A model generated the notes under the pieces. The model ran no database searches. It had not been told where the DNA came from and was given only the letters and a program-made list of their open reading frames with translations. The position numbers and the translations under genes were made by a program. A DNA stretch of 37,631 nucleotides from Lysobacteraceae bacterium (GTDB taxonomy: Bacteria; Pseudomonadota; Gammaproteobacteria; Xanthomonadales; Ahniellaceae): assembly GCA_021299185.1 (NCBI GenBank), contig JAJTHZ010000156.1, positions 1-37,631 on the forward strand, read 5' to 3'. Shown piece by piece: positions 1,816 to 36,244 of the stretch (its first letter is position 1; every line of letters starts with the position of its first letter).

Positions 1816-3910
<2,095 letters not shown>

Positions 3911-3914
<4 letters not shown>

Positions 3915-6088: not shown

Positions 6089-6091
6089 GGA

Positions 6092-8566
<2,475 letters not shown>

Positions 8567-8647
8567 CCGGTGTCGATCCCGGCGGGCGACAGGCCCGCGA
8601 CAAGCGTGGCGGCAGCTTAGGCCGGGGGTCGCCGGCGGGCACGCCCG

Positions 8648-8661
8648 TGCAAACGTATTCA
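8648..8661. promoter_or_regulatory. candidate LacI-family operator, glgP/symporter intergenic
   Basis: TGCAAACGTATTCA is an imperfect 14-bp palindrome with the central CG typical of LacI-family sites. It lies 88 bp from the glgP start and 75 bp from the symporter start, so one site could control both. Related sites occur at 11843-11856 and 21429-21442. No convincing -35/-10 pair could be assigned on either strand. Confidence 0.6.
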
Positions 8662-8729
8662 TCGCAGTTGCGGCATGAAATCGCACTAGTTTCAGCGCCT
8701 TGCGTGATCGCCGACCTTGGGAGGGGCCG

Positions 8730-10154: not shown

Positions 10155-10160
10155 GGAGCG

Positions 10161-10240
10161 AGGGCCCAGGGCCCAGGGCCCAGAGAAGCAGTGCTTCGGG
10201 CGCGCTCTTGACTGGGCCCTGAGCCCTGGGCCCTGGGCCC
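10161..10240. terminator. GGGCCCA-repeat inverted repeat, probable bidirectional terminator
   Basis: Left arm 10161-10183 contains three tandem GGGCCCA heptamers. Right arm 10212-10240 contains the complementary TGGGCCC/CCCTGGG run with a small interruption. The loop holds a further small hairpin (GAAGC...GCTTC, 10184-10196). A third partial copy of the motif lies near 10257-10268. The element sits between the converging symporter and maltose-transporter genes, where a shared terminator is expected, although no T-tract is present. Confidence 0.55.
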
Positions 10241-10348
10241 GCTGCAATCGGGGTATAGGGCCCAGGGTATGGACGCCGGGGGTCGGGCGGCGGTCGCGCC
10301 ACCGCACCGCCCCTCGCGGGGTGGCACCTGTCCCGGCGCGATGAACCC

Positions 10349-11782: not shown

Positions 11783-11833
11783 CTCCCACCCCCGTCGCTA
11801 TTCGGCAGCACGGTACATCGGCCTGGGGTGTTG

Positions 11834-11865
11834 TGCACCGCCTGCATTCGTATGCATCGCCTGCA
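11834..11865. promoter_or_regulatory. candidate LacI-family operator with flanking TGCA half-sites
   Basis: The core TGCATTCGTATGCA (11843-11856) is a 14-bp palindrome with a single mismatch. Two further TGCA steps flank it, so TGCA starts at 11834, 11843, 11853 and 11862, a spacing of 9, 10 and 9 bp. The region separates the divergent maltose-type transporter (67 bp to the core centre) and amylase (about 137 bp). It matches the candidate operators at 8648-8661 and 21429-21442. Confidence 0.65.
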
Positions 11866-11986
11866 TCGTTACGCCAGCCCATCGTCGCCGATCCGTTGCC
11901 GATATCGGAGCACCTCGGCGGGTATGCTCGGCGGGAGTGAACAAGCGAATGGTGGCGAAATGGTGCGCGAGCTGGAGGGTCCCGGC

Positions 11987-13816
11987 ATGGGGTCGAAGGT
12001 TGGAACACGAGCGCGGACGAAAGGCGCCGAGACAGAGCGTGGTCGAGCCGGGTCACGAGCGTTCCCGGCGCTGCGGCGAGTCGGATGGTTGATGCTCTCC
12101 GTCGCCCTCGCCGCCTGCGGGCGCGCGCCGGAGCCGCCCGCGCCGGCGCCGACGCCGACGCCGGCCGCCACCGAATCCTTCTACGGCACGCTGGCGCCGA
12201 TCGCCGCCAAGCCGGTGTACTTCGTGGTCACCGACCGCTTCGCCAACGGCGATCCGTCGAACGACCAGCGCGACCAGGGTGGCGCGCATCCGACCTGGGA
12301 CCTGCCGCTGCGCAACGAGGACGGCTCGCTGTCGCTCGGCCCCGATGGCACCGGCGACCATCTCGGATATCTCGGGGGCGACTTCAGGGGCGTGCTCGAT
12401 CACGCGGCCCACATCCGCGGCATGGGTTTCGGCGCGGTGTGGATCACGCCGATCGTCGACAATCCCGACCAGTCGTTCACCGGCGGCCGGCGACCGACGC
12501 CGACCTCGTTCCTCACCGACCAGGGCAAGAGCGGCTACCACGGCTACTGGGGCATCAACTTCTGGCGCCTCGACGAGCACCTGCCCAGCGAAGGCCTCGA
12601 CTTCCGCGCGTTCACCGCCGGCATGCGGGCGCAAGGCCTCGACATCGTGCTCGACGTGGTGGCCAACCACGGCTCGCCCGCGTACACGATGCCGGTGGCG
12701 CAGCCGCAGTTCGGCCAGTTGTACGACGCCGAGGGCAAGCTCGTTGCCGACCACCAGAACCTGCCGCCCGGCCAGCTCGACCCGAAGGGCAACCCGCTGC
12801 ACGCGTTCTACCTTGCCAAGCCCGACCTCGCCGAACTGTCCGACCTCGACCACGCGAACCCGGCGGTGATGGATTACCTGGTCGGCTCGACCCTGCACTG
12901 GCTGGAGCAGGGCGCATCAGCGCTGCGGCTGGACACCATGAAGCACGTGCCGTTCACCGCCTGGGCCGAGTACACGCGGCGCATCCGCGAGCGGCACTCG
13001 GGCCTGTTCATGTTCGGCGAGGTGTTCGTGCCGGAAGACGATCCGGATCCGATGGCCACGCTGGCCGAGTTCACCAAGCCGGAGAACGGCGGCGTCTCGG
13101 TGCTCGATTTCCCGCAGATGCGCGCCATGGTGCGCGCCTTCGGGCGCGAGCGCGCCGGTTTCGAGGTGCTGCTGCCCTGGCTGGCGCTGCAGGACGGACC
13201 GTACGCGAACGCCTACGAACTGATGACCTTCTACGACAACCACGACGTGCGGCGCCTGGACGCCGACGACGCGGGGTTCATCGACGCCCACCACTGGCTG
13301 TTCACCGCGCGCGGCACGCCGGTCGTCTACTACGGCTCCGAGGTCGGCTTCATGCGCGGGCTCGCGGAGCACCAGGGCAACCGCAACTACTTCGGGGCCG
13401 AGCGCATCGCCGCCGCGCAGGGCCATCCGATCCACGCGGCCCTGGTCCGCATCGGCGCGGTGCGCGCGGCTTCGGTGGCGCTGCAGCGCGGGCTGATGCT
13501 GCCGCTGGAGATCGCGGGCGAGCGCGCGGCGTTCTACCGCGTGTACCAGCACGAAGGCAGCGCACAGGTCGCGCTGGTGCTGCTCAACAAGGGCGATGCG
13601 CCGGCGTCGTTCACGGTCAGCGAGGCGCTGCAGCCCGGACGCTGGGTGCCGCAACTCGGCGGCGATCCGGTGGACGTGGCCGCCGGCGGTCGCATCGAGG
13701 CCAGCGTGCCGCCGCACGGCGCGCAGGTGTTCCTGCTCGATGCGCCGATCACGCTGCCGGCGCTGCGCGAGCGGGCGGCAAGCGCGATGACTGGCCGCGG
13801 CACCACGGCGCGCTGA
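11987..13816 (+). CDS. GH13 alpha-amylase family lipoprotein
   Basis: This 609-residue protein is a secreted GH13 enzyme likely to cut starch or maltodextrin. A lipobox (LSVALAAC, Cys44) follows a hydrophobic run, and Gly at +2 suggests outer-membrane sorting. A proline/alanine linker comes next, then the catalytic barrel beginning PVYFVVTDRFANGDPSND. Catalytic segments are ALRLDTMKHV (nucleophile Asp), MFGEVFVP (Glu) and FYDNHDVRRL (Asp). VVANHGSPAY is the first conserved region, and a C-terminal beta domain is present. I chose the ATG at 11987 because GGAGGG lies 7 bp upstream. This gives an unusually long, basic n-region of about 32 residues before the hydrophobic core, so a later start (TTG or ATG near 12090) is possible. 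The gene is divergent from the maltose transporter. Confidence 0.9.
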   Translation: MGSKVGTRARTKGAETERGRAGSRAFPALRRVGWLMLSVALAACGRAPEPPAPAPTPTPAATESFYGTLAPIAAKPVYFVVTDRFANGDPSNDQRDQGGAHPTWDLPLRNEDGSLSLGPDGTGDHLGYLGGDFRGVLDHAAHIRGMGFGAVWITPIVDNPDQSFTGGRRPTPTSFLTDQGKSGYHGYWGINFWRLDEHLPSEGLDFRAFTAGMRAQGLDIVLDVVANHGSPAYTMPVAQPQFGQLYDAEGKLVADHQNLPPGQLDPKGNPLHAFYLAKPDLAELSDLDHANPAVMDYLVGSTLHWLEQGASALRLDTMKHVPFTAWAEYTRRIRERHSGLFMFGEVFVPEDDPDPMATLAEFTKPENGGVSVLDFPQMRAMVRAFGRERAGFEVLLPWLALQDGPYANAYELMTFYDNHDVRRLDADDAGFIDAHHWLFTARGTPVVYYGSEVGFMRGLAEHQGNRNYFGAERIAAAQGHPIHAALVRIGAVRAASVALQRGLMLPLEIAGERAAFYRVYQHEGSAQVALVLLNKGDAPASFTVSEALQPGRWVPQLGGDPVDVAAGGRIEASVPPHGAQVFLLDAPITLPALRERAASAMTGRGTTAR

Positions 13817-13851
13817 TCGCCCCGGCGAGGGCGCTTCATGGTGCGCCGCTG

Positions 13852-14398
13852 CAGGCGCGGCGCGTGCGCCGCGACCGCAACCCTTGCGCCACCGCAAAAT
13901 CGGTCGCGCTGCACGCAGCGCTCCCACCCAGCCGGCCTTGCCGAAGCGCCGAAGCCGGAGCGTGGCCTTGTAGGAGCGGCGCGTGCGCCGCGACCGCAAC
14001 CTCGGCACTAAGGCAGGATCGGTCGCGCTGCACGCAGCGCTCCTACATGGCTGGCCGCGTCGGGACCGCGTGGCCGGAGCGAAGCCGTGTAGGAGCGGCG
14101 CGTGCGCCGCGACCGCAACCTTCGCGCCACCGCAGGATCGGTCGCGCTGCACGCAGCGCTCCTACCCAGCCGGCCTTGCCGAAGCACCGAAGCCGGAGCG
14201 TGGCCTTGTAGGAGCGGCGCGTGCGCCGCGACTGCAACCTCGGCACTACGGCAGGGTCGGTCGCGCTGCACGCAGCGCTCCTACATTGGAGGCTTTGCCG
14301 GGACGGCGAGGCCGGCGCGAAGCCGTGTGGGAGCGGCGCGTGCGCCGCGATGCTGTTCAGTCTTGCGGCAGCCCAGTCGCGCTGCACGCAGCGCATCT
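13852..14398. repeat. 119-bp-period palindromic (REP-like) repeat array, five copies
   Basis: Units start near 13852, 13971, 14090, 14209 and 14328, an exact 119-bp step; the first and last are degraded. Each unit holds two facing palindromes: GTAGGAGC around a GGCGCGTGCGCC core ending GCGACC, then GGTCGCGC around TGCACGCA ending GCTCCTAC. Spacers of units 1 and 3 resemble each other, as do those of 2 and 4, giving an A-B-A-B order with a 238-bp super-period. The array fills the gap between the amylase end and the lacI-type gene end. Short open frames across it are not credible genes. Confidence 0.9.
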
Positions 14399-14465
14399 GA
14401 AGTCCTCGCGTCTTGCAGGCCCTTCGACCGGTCGGGCGCTTTGGGGGCGCGGCCCGCGCGGCGGT

Positions 14466-15491
14466 TCAACTGCCGCAGGACTTCCGCACCACGAGCCGCG
14501 GCGGCAGCATGCGGCTGGCGACCGGCTCGCCGCGGATCTGGCGCAGCACGGTGTCGACCAGCAGTTCGCCGGCCTGCTTGGTGTCCTGGATCACGGTGGT
14601 CAGCGGCGGGATGCAGAAGCTCGCCATCGGGATGTCGTCGAAGCCGGCCACCGCGACGTGCTGCGGCACGCGCAGGCCGCGCTCGGCCAGCGCGCGGATG
14701 GCGCCGATCGCGAGCAGGTCGCTGGCGGCGAACACCGCGTCCACCGCCACGCCGCGCTCCAGCAGCTCGGCCAGCGCGCGCGCGCCGGTGACCTCGGTGG
14801 ATTCGTCAGCGTCCACCTGCAGGCGCGGATCGATGCCGATGCCGGCCGCCTGCAGCGCCTCGAGGTGGCCGCGGTAGCGGTCGCCGAACTCGGGGAAGCG
14901 CGGCGAGACATCGCCGACGAAGGCGATGCGACAATGCCCACGCGCAAGCAGGTGCTCGGTGATGAGACGGCCGCCGAGGCGGTTGTCGCAGCCGATCGAG
15001 ACCTCGGGCTGGCCATCCACCACCGCGCCCCAGCGCACGAAGTGCGTGCCCTGTTCGACCAGCCGCTCGAAGTTGGCCTTCGAGGCGGTGTAGTCGCCAT
15101 AGCCGAGCAGGATCAGGCCGTCGGCCTTGTGGCTGTCCTGGTAGTCGGCATGCCAGTCCTCGCTCAGTTGCTGGAACGACACCAGCAGGTCGTAGCCTTG
15201 TCTCGCGCACGCGCGGGTGATCGAGCCCAGCATCGACAGGAAGAACGGGTTGATCAGCGAGTCGTCGCTGGTCGGGTCCTCGAACAGCAGCAGCGCCAGC
15301 GTCACCGAATGCTGGCGGCGCAGGTTGCTGGCGTTCTTGTCGACCTTGTAGTTGAGCTCCTTCGCGATCTGCTGGACGCGCTTGCGCGTCTCGACGCTGA
15401 CCAGCGGGCTGCCGCGCAGCGCGCGCGACACCGTGGCCTGCGAGACGCCGGCGCGGTAGGCGATGTCGAACGAGGTGGCCTTGCCCTTCAT
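14466..15491 (-). CDS. LacI-family transcriptional regulator
   Basis: The 341-residue product has an N-terminal helix-turn-helix (SFDIAYRAGVSQATVSRALRG, about residues 6-26), the hinge region VDKNASNLRRQ, and a periplasmic-binding-protein-like effector domain ending in VVRKSCGS. Features such as VAGFDDIPMASFCIPPLTTV are typical of sugar-responsive LacI regulators. I took MKGKATSFDIAY (ATG at 15489-15491) as the start because family similarity begins there. However, an in-frame ATG at 15573-15575 has a better GGAG spaced about 8 bp and would add 28 residues. The gene lies between the amylase and the Entner-Doudoroff operon. It is the obvious candidate to bind the three TGCAWACGTWTGCA-like sites. 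The effector (maltose, glucose or an intermediate) is unknown. Confidence 0.93.
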   Translation of the reverse strand: MKGKATSFDIAYRAGVSQATVSRALRGSPLVSVETRKRVQQIAKELNYKVDKNASNLRRQHSVTLALLLFEDPTSDDSLINPFFLSMLGSITRACARQGYDLLVSFQQLSEDWHADYQDSHKADGLILLGYGDYTASKANFERLVEQGTHFVRWGAVVDGQPEVSIGCDNRLGGRLITEHLLARGHCRIAFVGDVSPRFPEFGDRYRGHLEALQAAGIGIDPRLQVDADESTEVTGARALAELLERGVAVDAVFAASDLLAIGAIRALAERGLRVPQHVAVAGFDDIPMASFCIPPLTTVIQDTKQAGELLVDTVLRQIRGEPVASRMLPPRLVVRKSCGS

Positions 15492-15641
15492 GCGATTCCC
15501 GATCTGGCGCCGGCTATTCTGGCGGTGATCGTGCGCCGAGCGGTAGCGGGGCGCGGGTTCGCTGGAGCGGGCCATCGATCAGTCTCCGTGTGTGACGCCG
15601 CCCAGGCGCCCGCGATGCTGCAATGCGGCAGGCAGAGGAGT

Positions 15642-15667
15642 GCGCGATATCGTCTGTCGATATGCGC
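15642..15667. repeat. inverted repeat between eda and the lacI-type gene
   Basis: GCGCGATATCG (15642-15652) and CGATATGCGC (15658-15667) form an imperfect inverted repeat around the 5-nt loop TCTGT. It lies 40 bp past the eda stop and about 150 bp upstream of the regulator start. It could be a regulatory site for the regulator gene or a weak terminator for the upstream operon. It does not match the TGCAWACG half-site. Confidence 0.4.
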
Positions 15668-15706
15668 CTTTCGTGTCGCATGGCAGCGATCGGATGCTGC
15701 GGCGCA

Positions 15707-16375
15707 TCACATCGATTCACGCGGTTTTCGCAGTTGCGCGGCGGTCGCGGCGAGGGCGGCGATCGCCGGCCAGTCGCGCGCGCGCAGGCGATCGGCCGGC
15801 ACCATCCACGATCCGCCGACCGTGCCGACGTTGGCCAGCGCGAGGAAGCCCGGCGCGCTCGCCGCGTCGATGCCGCCGGTGGGGCAGAAGCGGACCTGCG
15901 GGAACGGACCGCCGAACGCCTTCAGCGCCGCGGTGCCGCCCGCCGGCACCGCCGGGAAGAACTTGAAGCGGCGATGGCCGTGGTCGAGGCCATGCATGAT
16001 CTCGCTGGCGCTCGCCACCGCGGGGATGAAGGGGATCGGCGCGCGCTCGGCCGCCGCGTAGAGTGCCGGCGTCGCGCCCGGCGCGATCGCGAAGCGCGCG
16101 CCGGCAAAGGTGACCGCGTCGAGGTCGGCGGCGCCGAGCACCGTGCCGGCGCCGACCACCGCCTGCGGCAGTTCGCGCGCGATGAGGGCGATCGCCTCCA
16201 GCGCGACCGGCGTGCGCAGCGTCACTTCCAGCACCGGCAGCCCGGCATCGACCAGCGCGCGGCACAGCGGCAGGGCGTCGGCGAGGTGCTCGATCGCCAG
16301 CACCGGCATCACCGGCGCGGCGTCGAACACCGCGTCGACCGCGGCTGCGCGCGATTCGGGGGTCCAGCGGCTCAT
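15707..16375 (-). CDS. eda: 2-keto-3-deoxy-6-phosphogluconate aldolase
   Basis: Eda splits KDPG into pyruvate and glyceraldehyde-3-phosphate, the last Entner-Doudoroff step. The 222-residue protein carries [15 protein letters not shown] (with the conserved Glu and Arg), [15 protein letters not shown], the Schiff-base lysine in [13 protein letters not shown], and [20 protein letters not shown]. Length and order match the class I family throughout. Its ATG (16373-16375) overlaps the glk stop by 4 bp, so it is the last, translationally coupled gene of zwf-pgl-edd-glk-eda. The product glyceraldehyde-3-phosphate feeds GAPDH, also encoded in this window (36245-37258). Confidence 0.97.
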
Positions 16376-17364
16376 GCGGGCTCCTCGCGGTGCAGGGCGA
16401 CGGCGGCGCCGAGCAGGCCCGGCATCGGATGGGTGACCACGTGCACCGCCACGCCCTCGAGCAGCGCCGCGAAGCGCCCCTTGGCGAGGAAGCGTTCGCG
16501 GAACGCGCTGGCGCGCAGGAACGGGATGAAGCGCGGCACGATGCCGCCGGCGATGATCACGGTGCGCGCGCCGTGCAGCAGCGCGCAGTCACCGGCCACG
16601 CTGCCGAGCACCGCGCAGAACCGCGCCAGCGTGCGTCGGGCCACCGCGTCGTGGCCGTCGAGCGCGGCGGCGACGATCGCCGCCGGGTCGCGCAGCGGCG
16701 CCTTCAGTTGGTCGAGCGTCGGCGAATCGGTGCCGGCGGCCAGCGCGGCGTCGATCTGCGCGATGCCGGCGCCGGACAGCAGGCGCTCGTTGGACGTGCG
16801 GCCATGCCGCGCGTCCATCCAGCGCGCCACCAGGCGCTCTTCGTCGCCGATCGCCGCGAAGGTCACGTGGCCGCCCTCGGTCGGCACTACCTGCCAGCCG
16901 CGCGCGGCATCGCCGACCAGCAGCGCCACGCCGAGCCCGGTGCCCGGGCCGAGCACGCTCACCGGCCCGGCCAGCGGCGCGGCGGGATCGCCGTGCAGGG
17001 TCTCGCGATCGCCGCCATCGAGCGCGGGCACGGCCCAGGCGACGGCGGCGAAATCGTTGAGGATGGTGAGCCGCGCCAGGCCGAGGGCGGCGCGCAGTTC
17101 CGCGGTGCTGAACGACCACGCGCGGTTGGTGAGCCGGATCGCGTCGCCGGTCACCGGCGAGGCGACCGCGATCGCCGCCCGCGCGGGCCTGGCGCCCACC
17201 GCGGCGAGGTAGTGCTCGGCCGCATGCTGCAGGCTGGCGAATTCGGCGCAGGGCAGGGTGCGTTGCGCGTGCAGCGTCGGCGTCGCTGCCGCGCGGTCGA
17301 CCAGCGCGAAGCGCGCGTTGGTGCCGCCGATGTCGGCGACGAGATCGAGTGAGGGCGCGCCCAT
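16372..17364 (-). CDS. glk: glucokinase
   Basis: Glk phosphorylates free glucose with ATP to glucose-6-phosphate. The 330-residue product begins [20 protein letters not shown], containing the ATP phosphate-binding loop of the bacterial glucokinase family (PF02685). It also has [15 protein letters not shown] with the catalytic aspartate, [13 protein letters not shown] and [12 protein letters not shown]. The start at 17362-17364 lies 7 bp after the edd stop; the open frame upstream is edd shadow. Placement inside the Entner-Doudoroff operon supplies glucose released by MalQ and amylase, or imported by the symporter, directly to Zwf. This suits a cell taking up glucose without a phosphotransferase system. 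Confidence 0.96.
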
Positions 17365-17371
17365 CGCGGCC

Positions 17372-19192
17372 TCAGCCGCCCACCCACAGCGCGCTGCCGC
17401 CTTCCTCGGCGGACGTCGCGTGCGCGCGCATCGGGCCGAACAGCTCGCGACCGACGCCGTGCTGGTTGCCGGCCACGTCCACCGGCGCCGGCGCGCGCGC
17501 GGCCCAGTCGGCGGGATCCACCTTCGCCTCCAGCGTGCCGGTGTCGGCGCACACCACCACCACGTCGCCGTCGCGCAGGCGCGCGATCGGCCCGCCGCAG
17601 GCGGCCTCCGGCACCACGTGGATCGCCGCCAGCACCTTGCCCGAGGCGCCGGACATCCGGCCATCGGTGAGCAGCGCGACCTTCTGCCCGCGGTCCTGCA
17701 GCACGCCCAGTGTGGGCGTCAGCTTGTGCAGTTCCGGCATGCCGTTGGCGCGCGGGCCCTGGCCGCGGATCACGGCCACGAAATCGCCGGTGAGCGTGCC
17801 GGCCTTGAACGCCGCGAGCAGCTCGTCCTGCGAGTCGAACACGCGCGCCGGCGCTTCCAGCCGGCGATGCTCGGGCTTGACCGCGCTGACCTTGACCACC
17901 GCGCGGCCGAGGTTGCCGGTGAGCCGGCGCAGCCCGCCTTCGCGGTCGAAGGGCTCGGCCACCGGCCGCAGCACGGCCGTGTCGCGCGAGGCCGTCGCCG
18001 GCGCGCGCCAGCGCAGCGTGGTCCCGTCGAGCCAGGGCTCCTGCGCCTGCGCCGACAGCGGGCCGCCGTGCACGGTGCGGATGTCGTCGTGCAGCAGGCC
18101 CGCGGCCAGCAGTTCGCCGATCACGAAGCCCAGACCGCCGGCGGCGTGGAAGTGGTTCACGTCGGCGCTGCCGTTGGGGTACACGCGCGCCAGCAGTGGC
18201 GTGTGGCGCGAAAGTTCGTCGAGGTCGTCCCAGTCGATCGCGAGCCCGGCCGCGCGGGCGATCGCCACCAGGTGGATCGCATGGTTGGTCGAGCCACCGG
18301 TGGCCGCGAGGCCCACCATCGCGTTGACGATCGCCTTCTCGTCGACGGTGCGGCCGATCGGCGTGTACTCGGCGCCGAGCGCGGTGATCGCGCAGGCCCG
18401 TTCGGCGGTGGCGATGGTGAGCGCGTCGCGCAGCGGCGTGTTGGGATTGACGAAGGCAGTGCCCGGCAGGTGCAGGCCCATCATCTCCAGCAGCATCTGG
18501 TTGCTGTTGGCGGTGCCGTAGAAGGTGCACGTGCCGGGGCCGTGGTAGGACTTCGACTCGGCCTCCAGCAGTTCCTCGCGCGTGACCTTGCCTTCGGCGT
18601 AGGCCTGGCGCACGCGCGCCTTCTCCGCGTTCGGCAGGCCGGGCGTCATCGGGCCGGCGGGGACCAGGATCGCCGGCAGGTGGCCGAAGGCGAGCGCGCC
18701 GATCAGCAGGCCCGGCACGATCTTGTCGCACACGCCGAGCAGCAGGGTGGCGTCGAACATCTCGTGCGACAGCGACACCGCGGTGGCCATCGCGATCACG
18801 TCGCGCGACCACAGCGAGAGCTCCATCCCGGTGCGGCCCTGGGTGACGCCGTCGCACATCGCCGGCACGCCGCCGGCGACCTGCGCGGTGGCGCCGCGGT
18901 TGCGCGCGGCCATCTTGATCAGTTCGGGATAGTGCTGCATCGGCTGGTGCGCCGAGAGCATGTCGTTGTAGGCGGTGACGATGCCGAGGTTGGGCGCCCG
19001 CTGGCCGCGCAGCAGGTCCTTGTCGGTGCCGGAGGCGGCGAAGCCGTGCGCGAGGTTGCCGCAGGACAGGCGCGCGCGCGCGGTGCCGGCCTCGCGCGCG
19101 GCATCGATGCGCGCGAGGTAGGCGGTGCGCGTCGGTGCGCTGCGCTCGGTGATGCGGGCGGTGACGCGTTCGACGGCGGGGTGCAGGGACAT
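17372..19192 (-). CDS. edd: 6-phosphogluconate dehydratase
   Basis: Edd converts 6-phosphogluconate to KDPG and is an iron-sulphur dehydratase of the IlvD/Edd family. The 606-residue length is close to E. coli Edd (603). Characteristic segments are [70 protein letters not shown] and [12 protein letters not shown], with the cluster-ligand cysteines in the CDG, VCDK and GTCTFYG motifs. The C-terminal [12 protein letters not shown] is also conserved. The ATG at 19190-19192 overlaps the pgl stop by one base (TGATG), indicating coupling. The longer open frame to 19609 is shadow of pgl. Confidence 0.97.
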
Positions 19193-19896
19193 CAGGGACT
19201 CCAGTGGATCTCGATCGTCGCGCCCGGCGCATGCAGCAGGGCGCCGACGGGCAACCGCAGCGGGTCGGGCGCGCGCTGCGCCTGTTCGAGCACTGCGCTC
19301 TTGTCGTGTCCGGTGATGGCGAGCAGCACGCGCCGGCTGCGCAGCATGCGCGACAGCGTGAGGCTGACCCGCGGATGCGGGCCGGCGGCGGGCATCGGGT
19401 CGGGCAGGATCGCGGCGGCGGCGTCGCCGCCGGCGGGATCGAGCGCGCGGGGGAGGTTGGGCGAGCCGGGGAACAGCGAGCCGAAATGGCCGTCGACGCC
19501 CATCCCGAGCAGGGTGGCGTCGAACGGATCGGGCAGCACCTCGAGCCCCGCTTCGGCGAACGCCGGGTCGGGCGCGCCGGCCGGCGACTCGGGCACCAGC
19601 GGCAGCCAACGGATGCCATCGGCACCCGCGAAGGCGTCCTGCATCTGACGCAGGTTGCAGTCGGGATGCGTGCGGGGCACCCAGCGCTCGTCGGAGGGCA
19701 GCACGACGACCTTCGACCAGTCGCGCCGCCGCGCGGCAAGGCGGCGGAACACCGGTGGCGAAGTGCGCCCGCCGGCCAGCGCCAGCACCGCCGCGCCGCG
19801 CTCGGCCAGCGCCGTATCGAGCGCGGCGTCGATGCGTGCGGCGACCGCTGCGGCGAGCGCGTCGGCGTCGGCGTGTTGGATCAGGGTCCAGGCCAT
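19192..19896 (-). CDS. pgl: 6-phosphogluconolactonase
   Basis: Pgl hydrolyses 6-phosphogluconolactone, joining Zwf to Edd. The 234-residue protein is of the SOL/DevB type. It shows [36 protein letters not shown] (conserved DERxV) and [20 protein letters not shown], where the family has GxGxDGHxASLFP. The final segment includes LLAITGHDK. It starts 10 bp after the zwf stop and ends overlapping the edd ATG. Everything fits the Pseudomonas-like order zwf-pgl-edd. Confidence 0.95.
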
Positions 19897-19906
19897 GGCG
19901 TGCCGC

Positions 19907-21370
<1,464 letters not shown>

Positions 21371-26200: not shown

Positions 26201-26391
26201 TCCCGGCCGGGCGACGCGAACGGCGCCGGCAGCAGCCGGGCCTGGCGCAGCGGTCGCACGCGGGCGCCCGCCCGGCCGTCGGAAAATTGACCAGAATTTC
26301 CAGAGTCGGCGGGGCGCTTCGACTACCATGCGGCGGCTCGGTCTTTGCACCGTGCAGCGCGACAACACAACAACAGCCTGGGGACTCTCCG

Positions 26392-29300
26392 ATGTCGACG
26401 CGCCTGCTCGCGGCCTTCGCCGCGACGATGCCGATGCTGTTCGCCCTTCCTGCGGCCGCGCAGGACCCCGATTTCCAGTTGACCAAGCAGTTGGTCACGC
26501 CAGCCGCGGGGTCGACCGTGCCGCCCGGCACGCCCGTTCGCTACCGCATCACCTACCGCTGCAACGGCCTGGTCGCGACCACCTGCGGCTCGCTGGCCTT
26601 CGCCGACACGCTGCCGCCGCAGCTCGAGATCGTCGGCTGCGACTTCCCCGGTTTCGCCGTCTCGGCCTGCACGCCGGGGGGCGCAACCATCACCGCGAAC
26701 CGCGCGGTGCTGAACGCCGGCACCACCGGCGAGGGATTCATCGACACGCGTGTCCGCCCCGGCGCCGGCCCGGCGACCAACGTGACCAATACGGCGCAAG
26801 GCACGATCTCGCTGCCGAGCACCAATCCGCCGCAGCCGATGCCGGTGGTGGCGGTGAGCCCGCCGATCAACATCTCGGGCGCCAGCCAGCGCAGCTACAA
26901 CATCACCAAGACACGCATCGACCCGATCCAGGCCTTGGTGATCTCCGACCAGGCGACTTTCGTCACCGACCGCGTACGCTTCTGCGCGACCAGCGGCGTC
27001 GACCTGGTCGATCTCGGCGGGGCGACGATCTACGACGACTTGCCCTCGATTGCGACCAATATCCGCACCGCGGTCCCCGGCGGCACGCCCCCGATCTCCG
27101 AGAGCATCGCCGGCAACCGGGTCACCTGGACCATCCCGCCGGAGCGGCTGGACGTCGACGTGTTGTATCCGCCGGGGTCCAACCTCGGCGCGCCGTCCTG
27201 CTTCGATTTCTTCGTGACCTACGACCTGCCGGCCGGCGCGGTGGCGGTCCCCGACCGCGCCCACGTGCGCACGCCCGACCCGACCTATTGCGCGATCGGC
27301 AGCCTCGGCGTGCCGCCGCCCGGGGACACCGCGAACCCGCAGTGCTTCGGCGCCACCACCGGCATCCGCGGCGCACCGCAGTCGATCCTCACCCCATTCG
27401 CCAAAACCGGCAACGACGCCACACCGAGCGACACGCCCAACGACCTGGGCATCGGACGCATCAACTGGCGCCTGGCGGCGGGCTTCGAGTCCAACGTCGG
27501 GCTGCGCAACGTCTCGTTCTACGACATCCTGCCGCTGCCCGAGTCCGGCCCCGGCGGCACCACCCTGCCTCGGCTCGATGTCACCGCGTTCGCGCCGGGC
27601 AATTGGGCCTCCGCGGCGCCGGTTTACGAGGTGGTGGCCGACGTCTACGTGACCACCGTCGACCCCGCGCCGGAGGACGGCTGCGGCGGTGCCGGCTGGA
27701 CTGCGCTGGGCACCGGGATCCTCGGCGCCAACAGCGCGGTGTTCACCACCGGACTGGCCGGGGCGACGGGATTCTGCTGGTCGTTCCGCAACGCGCTGCC
27801 ATCCGGGCCCGCCACCGAGGTGCCGCGCGACTTCGCTTTCACCACCCAGCCGCGGGTGACCCAGGCGGTGCCGGCCTCGATCGTCCCGCCGGCGCTGCCC
27901 GACGCGCTGGAGCCGGACAACTGCTTCCGCGCGCGCTGGACCGCGGGCACGCCGCAGACCCAGCGCCTGTGCCGCACGCAGCGCATCGAGCGCCCGCGCC
28001 CGGGCGTCGACCCGGTGAAGGCGATCCAGTCCGCGCCCTCGCCGCTGCGACCGCTGGATACGATCGTGTTCCGGGTCGGCGTCGATCACACCGCGGGCGA
28101 TTCCACCGGCGACATCGTCGATCCGGTGATCGTCGACCTGTTGCCGCCGGAGCTCGAGTATCTGTCGTTCGCGGTGGTGCAGCCGGGCGCGCCCGTTCCG
28201 GTGGTGACCACGGTTGCGAACTTCAACGGGGTGGCGAACCAGACCCTGGTGCGGATCGCCTACAGCGGGACCTTCCCGCGCAATTTCGCGCAGATGCCGC
28301 GCGTCGATCTCACCACGCGGGTGCGCGCCTTCACCGGCGATGGAACCTACACCAACCGCGTGAGCGTGTTCGAGAACGGCGTGCCGCCGCGAACCTGCGC
28401 CGCGACCGAGGTCGCCGACGCCGACGATCGCGACGGTGACGGCAACACCACCGAGTTGCGCTGCGAACGTTCGATCAGTTTCGTGATCGCGGAGGCCGCG
28501 GTTCTCGACGGCAGCAAGTGGGTTGCCGGCACGGGGCCGGTGGACAACCCGGCCGACCCGCTGGTCGACGATCCCACCGAGCCACCGTCGGTCCTCCCCG
28601 CCGCATGCCCGACCTTCAGCCAGGCCTTCGGCGCGGGCACCGGCGACGGCTTCAGTCGCTTTCCCTGCGTGGCGCGCACGCGCGGCTACGGCGATGCCGC
28701 CGGTGGTCGCGCGACTTGGCGCATCCGCGTGCAGAACGCGGGCAACGTGGCTTACGACAACTATGTCCTCTACGACGTGCTGCCGTTCGTCGGCGACACC
28801 GGCGTCGGCGAGCCGCTGGTAGGCCAGCAGCGCAACACCGACTTCCGCCCGCAGCTGCTCGGCCCGCCTGCCGTGGTGCCGTCGCTGACCTCGCTCAACC
28901 TGCAGGGCGCGGGTGTCTTCACCATCGAGTACTCCGGCGCGAGCAACGCCTGTCGTCCGGAAGTTTCCTCCGACGACGACACGTCGGGCTGGCAGGGCGC
29001 GTGCACCAACGACTGGGCCACCACGCCGCCCGGCGGCAGCTTCGCCAACGTGCGCGCGATCCGCATCCGCGCCTTCGTCGATCCCAACGGCAGCAACCCG
29101 GTCAACTGGGGCGTGGGCGACGTGGTGGTGTTCGAGGTCCCGCTGGAAGTGCCGGCCACGACGCCGCGGGTCCCGCCGTCGGTGGTGGGCAGCGCTGCCG
29201 TGTTCAACGTGGCCTGGGGTTCGTTCGCGCACCGCGCCTATCGCGCGGTGACCGGTGCCGCGCTCGACCCGATCAACCTGTTGCCCACGGCCGAGCCGCC

Positions 29301-32300
29301 GAAGGTCGGCTTCATCAGTCCCGAACGGTATCGCCTCGGCAACCTGGTCTGGCGCGACGTCAACGACAACGGCACCTCGCAGGTCGGCGAGCCCGGCATC
29401 GACGGCGTGGCCGTGCGGCTGTGCCGCGACGACGACGGCAGCGCCGGCCCGAGCGCAGGCGATGCCACCGTCGGCACCACCACTACCGCCACCATCGGCA
29501 GCCAGGCCGGCAAGTACCTGTTCGAGGTGCTCGAGCGCCGCACGGACTACTACGTTGCCATCGCTGCCGGCCAGCCGGCACTCGCCGGGCTGCAGGTCTC
29601 GGCGGTCAACGGCTTGGCTCCCGGCAACAACGTCGATAACGACAACAACGCGCAGTTGGCGTCGGTGGCCGCGGCCTGCGGCGGTGGCGCGGCCTTCGTG
29701 TCGTCCGCCTTCGACCTCGGCACGCCGTCCAACTTCGAGCCCACCAACGAAACCATTCGCAGCGGCAGCGGCACCGATGACGATCCCAACAACGGCACCG
29801 GCAGCGCCGAGCCGTGGCCGGACGGGATGTCGAACTATTCGGTCGACTTCGGCTTCTCGGCTACCGGCAGCACCGAGGACGACCTCGGCGACCTGCCCGA
29901 CACCACCGGTGGCACGGGCGCGGGCAACTACCAGACCCTGCTCGTCAACAACGGCCCGAGCCACGTGCGCACGCCGGGGCTGACCATCGGCACCGTGTGG
30001 GACTCCGAACTCGACGGCCAGCCGAACGCGGGCGCCGACGGCGACGACGCCAACCCGTCCGGCGCCGACGACGAGGACGGCGTGGTCACGCCGGCGCAGT
30101 TGCGCTTCTTCCGCGGCCAGCCCGGTGTGCTCGACGTGCGCGTGGTCAACACCACCGCCACTGCGGCCCGGCTGTGCGGCTTCCTCGATCTGAACAGCGA
30201 CGGTGACTTCGCCGACGCTGGCGAGGTCGCACCCGCGGTTGCGGTGCCGGCCTCGGGCCCGGCGGGCGGCACGGTGGTGCAGTTGAACTTCGGCACCATT
30301 CCGGCCGCCGGCCTGAACATCGATCTCACCTACGTGCGCCTGCGCCTGACCAACACCGTCGCCGGCGCCTGTGCGGCCGCGTTCGCCAACGGCCCCGCCG
30401 CCAGCGGCGAGGTCGAGGATTACCGTGGCGCGGTGATCGCCGAGGACCGCGGCGACCTGCCGGACGGGCTGGGCGGTGCGCCCTCGTACCCGACCCTGAA
30501 CGCCAACAACGGCGCGGTGCACGTGATCTCCAGCGCCAACACCTTCCTCGGCGCGAGCGTCGACGCCGAACCGCAGGGCCAGCCGACGCTGGCGGCGAAT
30601 GGCGACGACACGCTGCCGACGGGACAGCCCGACGACGAGGACGGCATCACGTTCCCGACGCCGATCGTGGCCGGTCGCGCGAGTAGCATCGTCGCCACCG
30701 CCGGCGTGGCGGGACGCCTGAACTGCTGGTTCGACTACAACGCCAACGGCACCCTGGGTGACACCGTCGGCGGCCAGCCGGAGCAGTTCGCCAACGAACT
30801 GGCGATCAACGCCGGCGCGAATGTGGTCGCGCTGACGCCGCCGTTCGCCATCGCGCGCGGCAATTACTACCTGCGCTGCCGCTTCAGCACCGGCACCGGC
30901 CAGGGCAACCTGCCGACCGGCAGCGCGCCGAACGGCGAGGTCGAGGACTACCTCGTGCGCATCACCCAGCCCGACCTCGGCGACCTGCCGGACGCGGGCC
31001 CGGGCGTCGGCGCGGGCAACTACGAGACGCTGCGCGCCGCGGGCGGCGCCGAGCATCCGATCTTCGACCTGCCGGGCGCGACGCTGCGCCTCGGCGGCGC
31101 GATCGACGCCGAGGCCGATGGCCAGCCCTCGGCGGGCGCGGATGGCGACGACCTCGCCGGCGATGACGAAGACGGCATCACGGTCGCCAACCTCACCATG
31201 ACCGCCGCGACCGCGGCGACGGTGAGCTTCAGCGCGACCAACACGCTCGCCTTGCCCGCGAGCGTGTGCGGCTTCATCGACTTCAACGGCGACGGCGACT
31301 TTGCCGACGCTGGCGAGTCGGCGCAGGCGGCGGTGCCGGCGGGTTCGAACCCGCTGGCCGGCACGCTGGCGTTCGCCGTGCCGGCCACGGCGGTGCGCGA
31401 CACCTACGCGCGCTTCCGCATCAGCACCGCGCCGGCCTGCGCGCCGAACGGCCTCGCGCCGGACGGCGATGTGGAGGACTACCGCGCCACCATCATCGCC
31501 TTCGACCTCGGCGACTTGCCCAATGGCAGCGGCGCCGGCCTCTACCCGACGTTGCGCTCGGCCAGCGGCCCGCGCCACGAGATCGTGCCGGGCCTGCGGC
31601 TCGGTGCCGTGGTCGACGCCGAGGGCGACGGCCAGCCGAACGTGGGCGCCAGCGGCGATGATCTCGCCGGTCCGGCGCCGGACGACGAGGACGGCGTGAC
31701 CTTCGATCCGCTCAACCTCGGCAGTCCCGGCCGCGCCAACCTCAGCGTGCTCAACAGCACCGGCGGGCCGGCGACGCTGTGCGTGTTCGTCGACTGGAAC
31801 AACGACGGCGACTTCGGCGACACCTTCACCATCACCACGCCGGGCGGCGGCACCACGGCGGAGACCATCGCCCAGTCGGTGCCCAGCGCGGCCGCCGTGC
31901 AGAACCTGGTGGTGCAGCTCGGCATCGTTCCGCCGCCCGGTACGGTCGGCGTTCCGCCCACCGGCGCGGTCCTGCAGCCGTATGCGCGCGTGCGCCTGAG
32001 CACCACGCCGGGCTTCACCTGCACCGCGGGCGATGCGGCCGGCCCGTCGCCGAACGGCGAGGTCGAGGACTACCGCGTCGGCAGCACCACCGGCGCCGGC
32101 CTGATGAGCCTCGGCGACCTGGTTTTCGAGGACCGCAACAACAACTGCGTGCATGATGCCGGCGAGCCCGGCGTCGGCGGCGTGGCGGTGAGCGTGTTCC
32201 GCGATGCCGACAACGACAACCTGCCGGACGGCCCGGCGGTGTCGACGCAGAACACCACGCCGACCGGCGGCTACCTGTTCACCAACCTGGTGCCCGACAA

Positions 32301-33060
32301 CTATCGCGTGGCGATCGTGCGTCCGGCGCGCTACATCGGCTCCACCGGCAGCCTGCCGTACACCGGCAGCGGCGCCTGCGAGCCCGCCGCCGACCCGGAC
32401 ACCGACACCGTGAACAGCCGCGACAAGGGCACGGGCGCCGGCACGGCGGTGACCGAAATCGTCTCGCGTTCGGTCACGCTGGACCCAAAGGGTGAACCCG
32501 ACGACGGCACCAACGGTTACTGGCGCGTGGACTTCGGCCTGGTGCCGAACTTCGACCTCGCGCTGCGCAAGGCACTCGCGCCCGGCCAGCCGACGGTGGT
32601 GACCGTCGGCGCCAGCGTCGATTACCGGATCACGGTCAGCAACGAGGGTACGATTGCGGCGACCGCGATCACGATCGTCGACCGGATTCCGACCGGCATG
32701 ACGCTGGACGATGCGGCGTGGACCGCCGGCCCCGGCAATACGGCCACGCGGACCATCGCCGGGCCGCTCGCGCCGGGAGCCTCGGCGACGGTGGGGATCC
32801 GCCTGCGGGTGGCGAGCAACCTGGTGCCGACCTTCGTCAACCGCGCCGAGATCCGCGACGCGCGCGACGACGGCAACAATCCGGTTCGCGACATCGACTC
32901 GGTGCCGGACGACGGCCAGGATGGCCAAGACGACATCGACGACGTGCAGGTGACGCAGCCGATCTCGATCCCGGCCGGCAATGCGATGGGCTGGCTGCTG
33001 CTGGCGCTGCTGGTGCTGCTCGGCGGCGCGCTGACAACGCGCCGTCGCTTCGGAGCCTGA
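26392..33060 (+). CDS. giant secreted DUF11/SdrD-B/GEVED-domain protein with IPTL-like C-terminal anchor
   Basis: The 2222-residue protein has a signal peptide ending ALPAAAQ/DPDF. Residues about 30-980 hold DUF11-like beta domains. An SdrD B-like domain starts near 982 (LGNLVWRDVNDNGTSQVGEPG). Four GEVED-type repeats follow, starting near 1162, 1349, 1527 and 1704. Each opens with a GDLPD-like motif and DGQP...GDD...DDEDG, and closes with GEVEDY (GDVEDY in the third). Three contain acidic DxNxDGDF-type loops suited to calcium. A second SdrD B-like domain (near 1902), a DUF11 domain (near 2054) and a tail from 2193 (IPAGNAMGW, a hydrophobic helix, then RRRF) complete it. The tail resembles IPTL-CTERM, the signal associated with exosortase H. 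A surface adhesin or matrix role is inferred only. The start follows a GGGGAC run. Confidence 0.88.
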   Translation: MSTRLLAAFAATMPMLFALPAAAQDPDFQLTKQLVTPAAGSTVPPGTPVRYRITYRCNGLVATTCGSLAFADTLPPQLEIVGCDFPGFAVSACTPGGATITANRAVLNAGTTGEGFIDTRVRPGAGPATNVTNTAQGTISLPSTNPPQPMPVVAVSPPINISGASQRSYNITKTRIDPIQALVISDQATFVTDRVRFCATSGVDLVDLGGATIYDDLPSIATNIRTAVPGGTPPISESIAGNRVTWTIPPERLDVDVLYPPGSNLGAPSCFDFFVTYDLPAGAVAVPDRAHVRTPDPTYCAIGSLGVPPPGDTANPQCFGATTGIRGAPQSILTPFAKTGNDATPSDTPNDLGIGRINWRLAAGFESNVGLRNVSFYDILPLPESGPGGTTLPRLDVTAFAPGNWASAAPVYEVVADVYVTTVDPAPEDGCGGAGWTALGTGILGANSAVFTTGLAGATGFCWSFRNALPSGPATEVPRDFAFTTQPRVTQAVPASIVPPALPDALEPDNCFRARWTAGTPQTQRLCRTQRIERPRPGVDPVKAIQSAPSPLRPLDTIVFRVGVDHTAGDSTGDIVDPVIVDLLPPELEYLSFAVVQPGAPVPVVTTVANFNGVANQTLVRIAYSGTFPRNFAQMPRVDLTTRVRAFTGDGTYTNRVSVFENGVPPRTCAATEVADADDRDGDGNTTELRCERSISFVIAEAAVLDGSKWVAGTGPVDNPADPLVDDPTEPPSVLPAACPTFSQAFGAGTGDGFSRFPCVARTRGYGDAAGGRATWRIRVQNAGNVAYDNYVLYDVLPFVGDTGVGEPLVGQQRNTDFRPQLLGPPAVVPSLTSLNLQGAGVFTIEYSGASNACRPEVSSDDDTSGWQGACTNDWATTPPGGSFANVRAIRIRAFVDPNGSNPVNWGVGDVVVFEVPLEVPATTPRVPPSVVGSAAVFNVAWGSFAHRAYRAVTGAALDPINLLPTAEPPKVGFISPERYRLGNLVWRDVNDNGTSQVGEPGIDGVAVRLCRDDDGSAGPSAGDATVGTTTTATIGSQAGKYLFEVLERRTDYYVAIAAGQPALAGLQVSAVNGLAPGNNVDNDNNAQLASVAAACGGGAAFVSSAFDLGTPSNFEPTNETIRSGSGTDDDPNNGTGSAEPWPDGMSNYSVDFGFSATGSTEDDLGDLPDTTGGTGAGNYQTLLVNNGPSHVRTPGLTIGTVWDSELDGQPNAGADGDDANPSGADDEDGVVTPAQLRFFRGQPGVLDVRVVNTTATAARLCGFLDLNSDGDFADAGEVAPAVAVPASGPAGGTVVQLNFGTIPAAGLNIDLTYVRLRLTNTVAGACAAAFANGPAASGEVEDYRGAVIAEDRGDLPDGLGGAPSYPTLNANNGAVHVISSANTFLGASVDAEPQGQPTLAANGDDTLPTGQPDDEDGITFPTPIVAGRASSIVATAGVAGRLNCWFDYNANGTLGDTVGGQPEQFANELAINAGANVVALTPPFAIARGNYYLRCRFSTGTGQGNLPTGSAPNGEVEDYLVRITQPDLGDLPDAGPGVGAGNYETLRAAGGAEHPIFDLPGATLRLGGAIDAEADGQPSAGADGDDLAGDDEDGITVANLTMTAATAATVSFSATNTLALPASVCGFIDFNGDGDFADAGESAQAAVPAGSNPLAGTLAFAVPATAVRDTYARFRISTAPACAPNGLAPDGDVEDYRATIIAFDLGDLPNGSGAGLYPTLRSASGPRHEIVPGLRLGAVVDAEGDGQPNVGASGDDLAGPAPDDEDGVTFDPLNLGSPGRANLSVLNSTGGPATLCVFVDWNNDGDFGDTFTITTPGGGTTAETIAQSVPSAAAVQNLVVQLGIVPPPGTVGVPPTGAVLQPYARVRLSTTPGFTCTAGDAAGPSPNGEVEDYRVGSTTGAGLMSLGDLVFEDRNNNCVHDAGEPGVGGVAVSVFRDADNDNLPDGPAVSTQNTTPTGGYLFTNLVPDNYRVAIVRPARYIGSTGSLPYTGSGACEPAADPDTDTVNSRDKGTGAGTAVTEIVSRSVTLDPKGEPDDGTNGYWRVDFGLVPNFDLALRKALAPGQPTVVTVGASVDYRITVSNEGTIAATAITIVDRIPTGMTLDDAAWTAGPGNTATRTIAGPLAPGASATVGIRLRVASNLVPTFVNRAEIRDARDDGNNPVRDIDSVPDDGQDGQDDIDDVQVTQPISIPAGNAMGWLLLALLVLLGGALTTRRRFGA

Positions 33061-33112: not shown

Positions 33113-33661
33113 TCAGAACGCCGGCTTGACCTTCGCCGCGCCGAAGCGTGCGACGCAGGCGAGGATCTCTTCGCGCGCGGCGTCCGCGCTCGCCCAGCCC
33201 TCGACTTTCACCCACTTGCCCTTCTCGAGGTCCTTGTAGTGCTCGAAGAAGTGCGCGATGCGGTCGCGCGTGTGCTCGGGCACGTCGCCGATGTCGGCGA
33301 ACGGCTCGTATGGCGGGTAGATCTTCGAGGCCGGCACCGCCACCAGCTTGGTGTCCTCGCCGGCCTCGTCGGTCATCTTCAGCATGCCCAGCGGGCGCAC
33401 GCGGATCACCGAGCCCGGGATCAGCGGCAGCGGCATCACCACCAGCACGTCGGCGGGATCGCCGTCGCCCGACAGGGTGTGCGGGATGTAGCCGTAATTG
33501 CACGGGTAGCGCATCGGCGTGGTGAGCACGCGGTCGACGAAGATCGCGCCGGTGTCCTTGTCGACTTCGTACTTGACCGGCTCGGCGTTCATCGGGATCT
33601 CGATGACGACGTTGACTTCGTGCGGCACGTTGCGGCCGGCGGGTACGCGTTCGAGGGCCAT
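33113..33661 (-). CDS. ppa: inorganic pyrophosphatase (family I)
   Basis: Ppa hydrolyses pyrophosphate to phosphate in the cytoplasm and drives biosynthetic reactions. The 182-residue protein is of normal family I length. It contains [34 protein letters not shown] and the metal-binding [11 protein letters not shown] motif with its aspartates, followed by [12 protein letters not shown] and EDTKLVAVP. The C-terminal [16 protein letters not shown] is also typical. The ATG at 33659-33661 has a GGAG 8 bp upstream. It lies 59 bp downstream of the HDOD gene pair on the same strand, so it may have its own promoter or be read through. Confidence 0.97.
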
Positions 33662-33720
33662 CGGCAAGCTCCAGGGGATCCGTCCGCGACAGTGTAGCCG
33701 TCCCCGCGTGGAGCCTGCGC

Positions 33721-34890
33721 TCAGGCCATGGCCGAGAGCTCGCCCGCCAGCTTGCGCCAGTCGCGCAGCCGGCCGTGCTGGCCGAGCCGGCGCAGGTAGT
33801 CCTCGTCCACCGGCTCGCCGGCGGCCAGCGCCGCGGCGACGTGCACGGCGCCGACCACGCCGAACCGGGCCTCGCCGGCCGACCCCGGGTCGTGGCGGAA
33901 GGCGACCGCTTCCACCACCGCCTCGGGCAGGCCCCATTGCGCGAGCAGCGCCGCGCCGGCCTCGCAGTGCGGCGGTCTCGTCCCGTCGCCGCGCGGCAGC
34001 GGCGGCAGCAGCAGGCCGACGTCGCACAGCAGCGCGGCGGTGCGCGCCAGTTCGGCGTCCGCCCACTGGTCGAGCACCAGCGGCGCCAGCACCGACGCGA
34101 GCAGGGCGCGGCGCTGCAGCGCGTCCGGGTCGACGGCGGTCGGTCCCGGCCGGCGCGCGAAGGCCTCGCAGGCCAACACCAGGTGTCGCAGCGTGCGGGT
34201 GCCCAGCCGCTGCACCGCCTGGTCGAGGCTGGCCAGCGGGCGGCCGGTGGAGAAGAAGGCGGTGTTCGACAGGCGCAGCACCGAGGCCGCCAGCGCGGGG
34301 TCGGTGGCGACGATGGCGGCCAGTTCCAGCACGCCGACGTCGTCCTGCTGCAGCGCCTGGGTCAGGCGCAGGTAGACGCTTGGCGCCGGCGGCAGCTGGC
34401 CGACGCCGCCGACCAGCGCCGCGAGACGCGGGCTGGCCAGCAGCTGGTGCAGGCGCTCGATGCGCAGCACGGCTTCGCCGACCTGTGCGGGGTGGCCGTG
34501 GGCCGGCAGCACGCGGTGGGCGATCGCCAGCGCGCGCACCGCGGTCTCCGGCTCCGCGCCGCACAGCAGGACGCGGATCGTGCCTGGTCTCAGCGCCGCG
34601 GTCTCGCGCATCACCTCGGCGGCGGGGCAGCGTGCGTCCAGCGATTCGACCACCAGTGCATCGAAGGCCTGCGAGCGCAGCAGGCGGCGCCCCTCGACCG
34701 GGTCGGTCGTGGCCACTACCTGCCAGGCGGCCTGGCCGCCGAGCGCGGCAGCCAGCGCGGCGCCGGCGACCTTGTCGGGGCGTTCATGCAGCAGCAGCAA
34801 ACGGCGCGGCGCGCCCGGCGCGGCGCGCTCGTCGTGCGACGTGGCCGCGGACGGCAAGCGGCGGGGTTCGTGGGCCGAGGCCGGCAACAT
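33721..34890 (-). CDS. HDOD-domain protein with degenerate receiver domain
   Basis: This 389-residue cytoplasmic protein has an N-terminal receiver-like fold (about residues 28-145) and an HDOD domain (about 150-345; [54 protein letters not shown]). It is a paralogue of the adjacent upstream gene. Aligned to that gene, the phospho-acceptor aspartate is replaced by Glu82 (LVVES), the N-terminal acidic residue by His35, and the conserved lysine of HRVLAKP by alanine. It is therefore probably a pseudo-receiver that cannot be phosphorylated. The ATG at 34888-34890 has GGAG 7 bp upstream and lies 22 bp after the partner's stop. HDOD proteins often act in second-messenger and stress signalling; the exact role is unknown. 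Confidence 0.85.
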
Positions 34891-34912
34891 CGCCGCGCTC
34901 CGCCGCCGCCGC

Positions 34913-36022
34913 TTAGGCGGCTTCGGCGAAACCCTCGAACATCGACTGCCACTGCGGCAGCCGTTCGATCGCGCCGGTCGCTTCGAGGAAGGCCTCGTCG
35001 AGCGCATGTCCCTGGGCGAGGCCGACCGCCACGTGCACCGCGCCGACGATGCCGAACTGCCGCGTGCCGCCGCGCGCCGGCTGGTGATGGAAGGCGACCG
35101 CCTCGACGATCGGCATCGGCAGGCCCCAAAGGCCCAGCAGGTAGGCGCCGGCACCGGCGTGCGGCGGCAGTTCGCGGGATTCCTCGAAGCGCTCGAGTTC
35201 CGCGTGGTCCTTGCCGAGCCCCGGCAAGAGCAGGCCGACGTCGGCCAGCAGCGCGGCGGTGCCGGCGAGGTCGGCGGCGGCGCGCTGCGGCAGCAGGCGC
35301 GAGGCGAGGGTGGAGGCGATCAGGGCCTTGCGCTGCAGGGCCTCGGCATCGCCCGCCCCGGCACCTGGGCGGGCGAACACTTCGGCCGCCAGCGCGATGG
35401 TGCGCAGGGCACGCAGGCCGAGGCGGGCCACCGCCGAGCGGATGTCGGTGATCTGCCGGCCGGCGCTGAACATGGCCGAGTTGCACATCTGCAGCACCTT
35501 GGCGGCCAGCGCCGGGTCCTGCGCGACCAGTTTCGCGATCTGGCCGGCGTCGGAATTGGGATCGTCCATCGCCTGCATGAGGCGCAGGTAGAGGCGCGGC
35601 GCGGGCGGCAGGCGGTCGACCCGGCCGACCATCTCGCGGATGCGCTCGCTGGCCAGGATGCCGTGCAACGAGCACACCAGGTCGACCGCATCCGCGGTCT
35701 CGGCGGCGCTGATCGGCTTGGCCAGCACGCGATGGGCGACGTTGAGCGCGCGCAGCGCCTCGTCCTCGTCGTCCTGGCCCGACAGCAGGATGCGCACCGT
35801 CTCGGGGCGCCGCGACTGGAACTCCTTGAGCAGGGTGGCGCCGTCCATGCCGGCGGCGCGCATGTCGGCGATCACCACGTCGGCCGGCCGGCTGTCGGCG
35901 ATCGCCAGCGCGGTCTGCGCGTCCGGCGGGCATTCCACTTCCCAGTCCGCGCGCAGGCGCGCGAGCTGCGACTCCAGCTCGGTCAGTTGACCGGCGGCTC
36001 CATCGACGACGACGACGAACAT
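34913..36022 (-). CDS. response regulator with receiver and HDOD domains
   Basis: The 369-residue protein begins with a receiver domain (residues 2-115): VVVVD at the start, phospho-acceptor Asp53 in [13 protein letters not shown], and Lys in HRVLAKPIS. An HDOD domain follows (about 125-330; [54 protein letters not shown]). The HD-type metal residues are not all conserved, as usual for HDOD, so phosphodiesterase activity is not expected. The start at 36020-36022 has a strong GAGGAGAGG before it. It is the first gene of a two-gene unit with its degenerate paralogue. No sensor kinase gene is nearby. It is divergent from GAPDH across 222 bp. Confidence 0.9.
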
Positions 36023-36244
36023 GGCCTCTCCTCGGTGCTGGGTGCCGCGCCCCGACGCGGCGGTCCCGACCTGCGAGGCAAGCGTCGTGCCGACCCCGTC
36101 AGGGCGCGCGCTGGCGCGCCGTGCGGGCCCCGGGGCGACAGGAAACCGGCGCCCGGGGGCGTCGGCGTCCCGTCCCGGCAGTGCCCGGCCGGCGGTCGGG
36201 CGGTACACTACGGGGCTTTCACGCCACCGCCCCGAGGACCTCCC

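Follow-up and report, generated by a model that had tools for sequence, protein, structure and literature searches.

Tandem Rec-HDOD genes beside ppa with receivers at two degrees of decay

Two adjacent Rec-HDOD genes between ppa and gap

The window, as we call the whole stretch of 37,631 nucleotides that was analysed, carries two adjacent genes, A and B, each encoding a receiver joined to an HDOD domain (Rec-HDOD). Their surroundings are as follows:

33113..33661, minus strand: ppa, inorganic pyrophosphatase (Pfam PF00719, 2.4e-57)
34890-33721, minus strand: gene B, Rec-HDOD, 389 aa counted from the ATG at 34890
34891..34912, minus strand: A-to-B spacer of 22 bases, with GGAG ahead of B's ATG by eye
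36022-34913, minus strand: gene A, Rec-HDOD, 369 aa
36245..37258, plus strand: gap, glyceraldehyde-3-phosphate dehydrogenase (Pfam PF02800, Gp_dh_C, 1.6e-66)

The ppa gene lies downstream of B on the same strand after a gap of 59 bases, while gap is divergent from A, their start codons 222 bases apart. Two in-frame alternatives to the start of B, a GTG at 35154 and an ATG at 35007, both overlap A. We infer that A and B are likely carried on one transcript. B is a full-length open frame, and its GC content by codon position (0.84/0.54/0.94, with similar values for A) is of the coding type. Pfam detected no kinase domain in the 25 window ORFs examined, taken from 54 mechanically called ORFs of at least 250 aa, and the contig ends are near. 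Additionally, the window gave no Rfam match at the gathering threshold. By eye, TACACT stretches resembling a -10 box precede ppa (33662-33720) and gap (36023-36244). Elsewhere in the window, positions 26287-33060 (plus strand) encode a very large protein, predicted to be secreted or displayed on the surface, that contains GEVED, SdrD_B-like and DUF11 repeats, and 1812-21370 (minus strand) holds sugar metabolism genes for a CBM48/alpha-amylase-type enzyme, glycogen phosphorylase, an MFS transporter, a LacI regulator, glucokinase and glucose-6-phosphate dehydrogenase.

A sequence-only reading of this DNA had described the two genes as adjacent full-length paralogues. Indeed, the proteins are identical at 154 of 336 aligned positions (46%; BLASTP E 2e-71), far beyond chance. 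Pfam places both in the HDOD family (PF08668; A 1.7e-32, 113 bits; B 1.3e-29, 103.5 bits; gathering threshold 22.9). A also matches Response_reg (PF00072) at 3.2e-13, and no match of B to this family was reported at E values up to 1. Identity between the two falls to 34 of 124 positions in the receiver, against 107 of 195 (55%) in the HDOD stretch. The divergence is concentrated in the receiver, and the HDOD half is much better conserved. NCBIfam offered no curated family for either protein, judged on 25 of the 40 matches to A and on the 4 matches to B.

Receiver residues, HDOD motif and predicted fold

The portion of PMC12632262 drawn on here defines a pseudo-receiver (PsR) as a receiver missing any of five residues: two acids (DD1 and DD2), the Asp (D), the Ser/Thr (T) and the Lys (K). 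At these positions A has Asp7, Gly8, Asp53 (codon GAC), Ser81 and Lys102 (AAG), so that four of five are kept and DD2 is missing; in addition, Ala57 replaces the Pro of D+4 and Val99 the aromatic residue of K-3. B has His35, Glu36, Glu82 (GAA), Cys110 and Ala130 (GCC), keeping only the acid at DD2. Neither protein has the canonical set, A being without DD2 and B without four of the five. Both are pseudo-receivers under this definition, A on account of Gly8, and B alone is aspartate-less. The earlier assignment of a pseudo-receiver to B, with Glu82 in place of the Asp and Ala130 in place of the Lys, agrees with these positions. For the upstream copy, the retention of Asp53 and Lys102 was read correctly; its standing as an intact receiver was not, given Gly8 at DD2. 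The same source states that DD2 binds the metal directly, and the lack of DD2 makes it doubtful that A works as an ordinary phospho-receiver. Judged by residue content, the difference between A and B is one of degree, slight against near-complete decay, rather than of an intact and a degenerate receiver.

A structural model of B, built with 53 relatives in the alignment, reached a mean pLDDT of 88.5 and a pTM of 0.87. In VIA-align comparisons residues 27-152 resembled receiver domains (highest Z 17.8, for 3crn_B, with an rmsd of 1.8 over 120 residues) and residues 150-389 resembled HDOD proteins (highest Z 18.8, for 3m1t). A (beta-alpha)5 receiver fold is predicted for B by this model (27-152) and for A by its Pfam match. 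The alignment behind the model is rich in canonical receivers, which favours the appearance of a receiver fold, and the model thus backs the fold of B but not any activity. Modelled from its sequence alone, B reached a mean pLDDT of 46.7, and that model was set aside.

In the HDOD half, Ala-Asp in A and Cys-Asp in B replace the His-Asp of the HD motif, so neither protein has the pair expected of an HD-type metal phosphohydrolase. The His of this pair is missing from all 80 sequences of the order set defined below (one of them being a gap), and His-Asp is present in 74 of 87 sequences of a named GTDB scan set (best 80 of 176 loci). On the missing His, the HDOD domains appear to be non-catalytic. 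By sequence or by fold they match MmoQ, SadB and other solved HDOD proteins (3hc1, 3m1t, 3p3q, 9qzk) at identities of about 16-23%.

Homologues, ppa linkage and origin of the pair

No orthologue of B was found: the matches listed were at most 48% identical, and none came from the nine other genomes of the family, four of which are less than 90% complete. The genus is represented by one genome, the window's own. When the 10 family genomes were searched for B at 1e-20, only the window's own genome matched, and A had no match in the nine others at 1e-30. B was matched in 81 of 398 genomes of the order sample (E 1e-25; best identities 47-48%), as was A at 1e-30. The class sample of 369 genomes gave six B matches at 1e-30, two of them new. 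In a sample of family f2, 171 of 395 genomes matched at 1e-60, with no more than 48% identity among the matches listed. In the large samples scoring was limited to the first 4-5 candidates of each genome, so additional copies may be missed. Identity to B was at most 43% in the best 80 of 176 loci of the named GTDB scan, which may omit the genome of the window or others very close to it. Spread of B on plasmids was rejected: 14 of 72,556 plasmid records matched, all below 60% identity and none spanning 80% of B.

The order set comprises 80 distinct sequences, A and B included, obtained from 106 rows by removing those with identical C-terminal 250 aa; loci L015 and L053 were excluded as repeats. 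At position 53 these sequences carry Ala (22), Gly (18), Asp (17), Cys (12), Ser (5) or Glu (2), besides single instances of Pro, Thr, Gln and a gap. All five receiver residues are kept in 10 of the 80; for the named GTDB scan, which covers the best 80 of 176 loci, the figure is 71 of 87. The sequence-only reading had proposed that conservation of the Glu be checked in orthologues and had named variation there as the contrary outcome. At the family level the site does vary, although no strict orthologue of B turned up.

Of 70 genomes or records, 41 have a ppa gene immediately upstream of a Rec-HDOD gene and codirectional with it, the flanks being short at some loci. Among the 40 distinct ppa-linked first copies the Asp site is Ala in 21, Cys in 12, Asp in 4 and Glu, Pro or Ser in one each. 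One of the 40 retains the Lys; none has the Ser/Thr, the DD1 acid or the full set of five. The sole Glu belongs to genus g97, in which three of four genomes match. All four g97 sequences (L042, L217, L218, L219) read Gly-Arg-Glu-Leu-Lys, keeping Glu and Lys and losing the Ser/Thr; three of the genes adjoin ppa, and the fourth shows none within its 4-kb locus. In genus g18 the Asp site is Cys. The S. maltophilia Cys-receiver that appears in the part of PMC4395418 consulted might be a ppa-linked gene of this kind. The ppa-linked pseudo-receiver HDOD genes come from part of the loci L013-L070 and L181-L194, and several carry Cys at the Asp site.

These ppa-linked genes of Lysobacteraceae resemble A and B in architecture, identity (40-49%), neighbour, degenerate receivers and His-less HDOD domains. 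They differ in gene order, since in them ppa is followed by one gene or by a tandem pair, whereas in the window the pair comes before ppa. A is also set apart by its D, Ser and Lys. Tandem Rec-HDOD pairs after ppa occur in G332, in two Silanimonas genomes and in one Lysobacteraceae MAG. G332 also has a second, divergently transcribed degenerate Rec-HDOD pair (L072, contig 2, 354074-356452). In the nine other family genomes ppa was matched in seven, and no HDOD gene lay near it in the stretches read, some of which stop at contig ends. The ppa neighbourhood is common to the window and its relatives, either by descent or through independent origins.

Two other loci hold longer rows. L149:3466-7047, from the named GTDB scan, encodes a canonical Rec-HDOD, a Rec-HD_5 and then a Rec-HDOD whose Asp site is Glu, a distant parallel to pairs of a canonical and a pseudo-receiver. 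L117:3482-7134 shows the series Rec-HDOD, Rec-HD_5, Rec-HDOD, and its third protein lacks DD2.

Trees were built from 57 (full-length) and 56 (HDOD-only) of the 80 distinct rows after near-duplicates were dropped, and the C226 fragment was left out of the second. The full-length tree, in which the branch of B is long (1.45, against 0.66 for A), places B weakly with a G332 gene where long branches meet, and the HDOD-only tree does not resolve A and B. A sister relationship of A and B is neither supported nor rejected (AU p 0.39, lnL difference 0.04), and the trees do not show a recent tandem duplication. The window's genome has at least three further Rec-HDOD genes: canonical C33, degenerate C50 and C226, of which a contig end leaves only a fragment. 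In the trees C50 clusters with the second genes of the tandem pairs (100/98 in the full-length tree; 96/90 in the HDOD-only tree, subject to a long-branch warning). C33 and the C226 fragment share the Rec-HDOD architecture and 37-43% identity with A; unlike A and B, they have all five receiver residues. The receiver and HDOD parts at G000 C226:11-625 and C95:3-449 may be one canonical Rec-HDOD split by contig ends.

Proposed function of B and meaning for the family

The reading we favour, with somewhat better than even confidence, is that A and B are old tandem duplicates of an atypical response regulator of the Rec-HDOD type beside ppa and that B, if it functions at all, is a phosphorylation-independent HDOD adaptor in which Glu82 is no phosphomimic switch. 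In the group of Rec-HDOD proteins encoded beside ppa, the receiver would have been released from phosphorylation. The receiver half of B, still predicted to fold, would serve as a dimerisation or partner-binding module. With a putatively non-catalytic HDOD half, the activity of B would be set by its expression and its binding partners, and Glu82 would be one of several tolerated replacements. Several observations count against this reading: the Asp is kept in 4 of 40 first copies, B retains an acid at DD2 together with a Glu at D, the g97 sequences keep Glu with Lys, no orthologue of B was found in the samples searched, the trees neither support nor reject A and B as sisters, and the model of B comes from an alignment rich in canonical receivers.

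The sequence-only reading had instead proposed that Glu82 mimics phospho-Asp and locks B in an active state, as a constitutive partner or decoy of A acting by heterodimerisation or by titration of a kinase. A Glu does stand at the aligned site and the two genes adjoin across 22 bases. PMC12632262, in the portion used, discusses phosphomimic Glu residues and PsR/receiver heterodimers such as WhiI/BldM. The Glu and Lys of the g97 genes and the distant L149 Glu-bearing Rec-HDOD beside a canonical one point the same way. However, the same source suggests that Glu mimicry acts through binding T and K, and B has Cys and Ala where the Ser/Thr and Lys would hold the mimic, which makes mimicry in B unlikely. 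The site varies among the 40 ppa-linked homologues, A itself lacks DD2, and the D-residue idea is reported there as disproved in some pseudo-receivers. According to the part of PMC4395418 consulted, Glu takes the place of the Asp more often than any other residue in aspartate-less receivers (26%), so its single occurrence in B is weak evidence, and an Asp-to-Glu change alone is often insufficient to activate. Phosphomimicry by Glu82 is thus improbable, although a heterodimer with A or a decoy role for B is possible. Because Glu and Lys are kept in all four g97 sequences, selection may maintain a Glu-locked state in some members of the group, though B, having no Lys, lacks such a pair, and on these residues the g97 genes are better candidates for a Glu-locked receiver than B.

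That B is a decaying duplicate without selected function is similarly unlikely in our estimate. Its long branch, the loss of nearly all receiver catalytic residues and its absence from all nine other family genomes (four less than 90% complete) fit such decay, but the open frame is full-length with coding-type composition and the HDOD half remains 55% identical to A. Very improbably, A would be a working phospho-receiver, as its D, Ser and Lys might suggest, and B would respond to redox state or metal through Cys110 and an acidic pocket (His35 and the acids at 36 and 82 lie near the former pocket by alignment), but Cys occurs at the T site in only 2 of 80 order-set rows and is not a group trait.

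The closest known systems include the aspartate-less and pseudo-receivers of PMC4395418 and PMC12632262, as far as the parts consulted describe them: B lacks the Asp, A and B each miss at least one of the five residues, and the output is HDOD, which PMC4395418 counts among outputs highly associated with aspartate-less receivers. In contrast to that set, in which the Lys position is basic in 70%, B has Ala and is more degenerate. Our search of open-access PMC returned no paper joining HDOD with inorganic pyrophosphatase, with Lysobacter or with pseudo-receiver.

A broader view, which we offer as speculative and rather unlikely, is that the ppa-linked Rec-HDOD family of Xanthomonadales/Lysobacterales lost phospho-signalling stepwise while remaining next to the pyrophosphatase gene. 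Its receiver might have become a ligand-binding or docking module by which the family senses or serves pyrophosphate or carbon metabolism, with the window pair at an early duplicated stage. A would have lost only DD2, the g97 proteins would retain Glu and Lys, the first copies of tandems Asp alone, and most others nothing.

By itself the window pair is ordinary for its protein group, and it is a modest further example of a receiver decay already common there. The portion of PMC12632262 used here gives the on-off control of bacterial pseudo-receivers as unknown. A tandem whose members have decayed to different extents, with relatives in further states next to ppa, offers a usable test bed for whether receiver surfaces keep their importance after phosphorylation has been lost.
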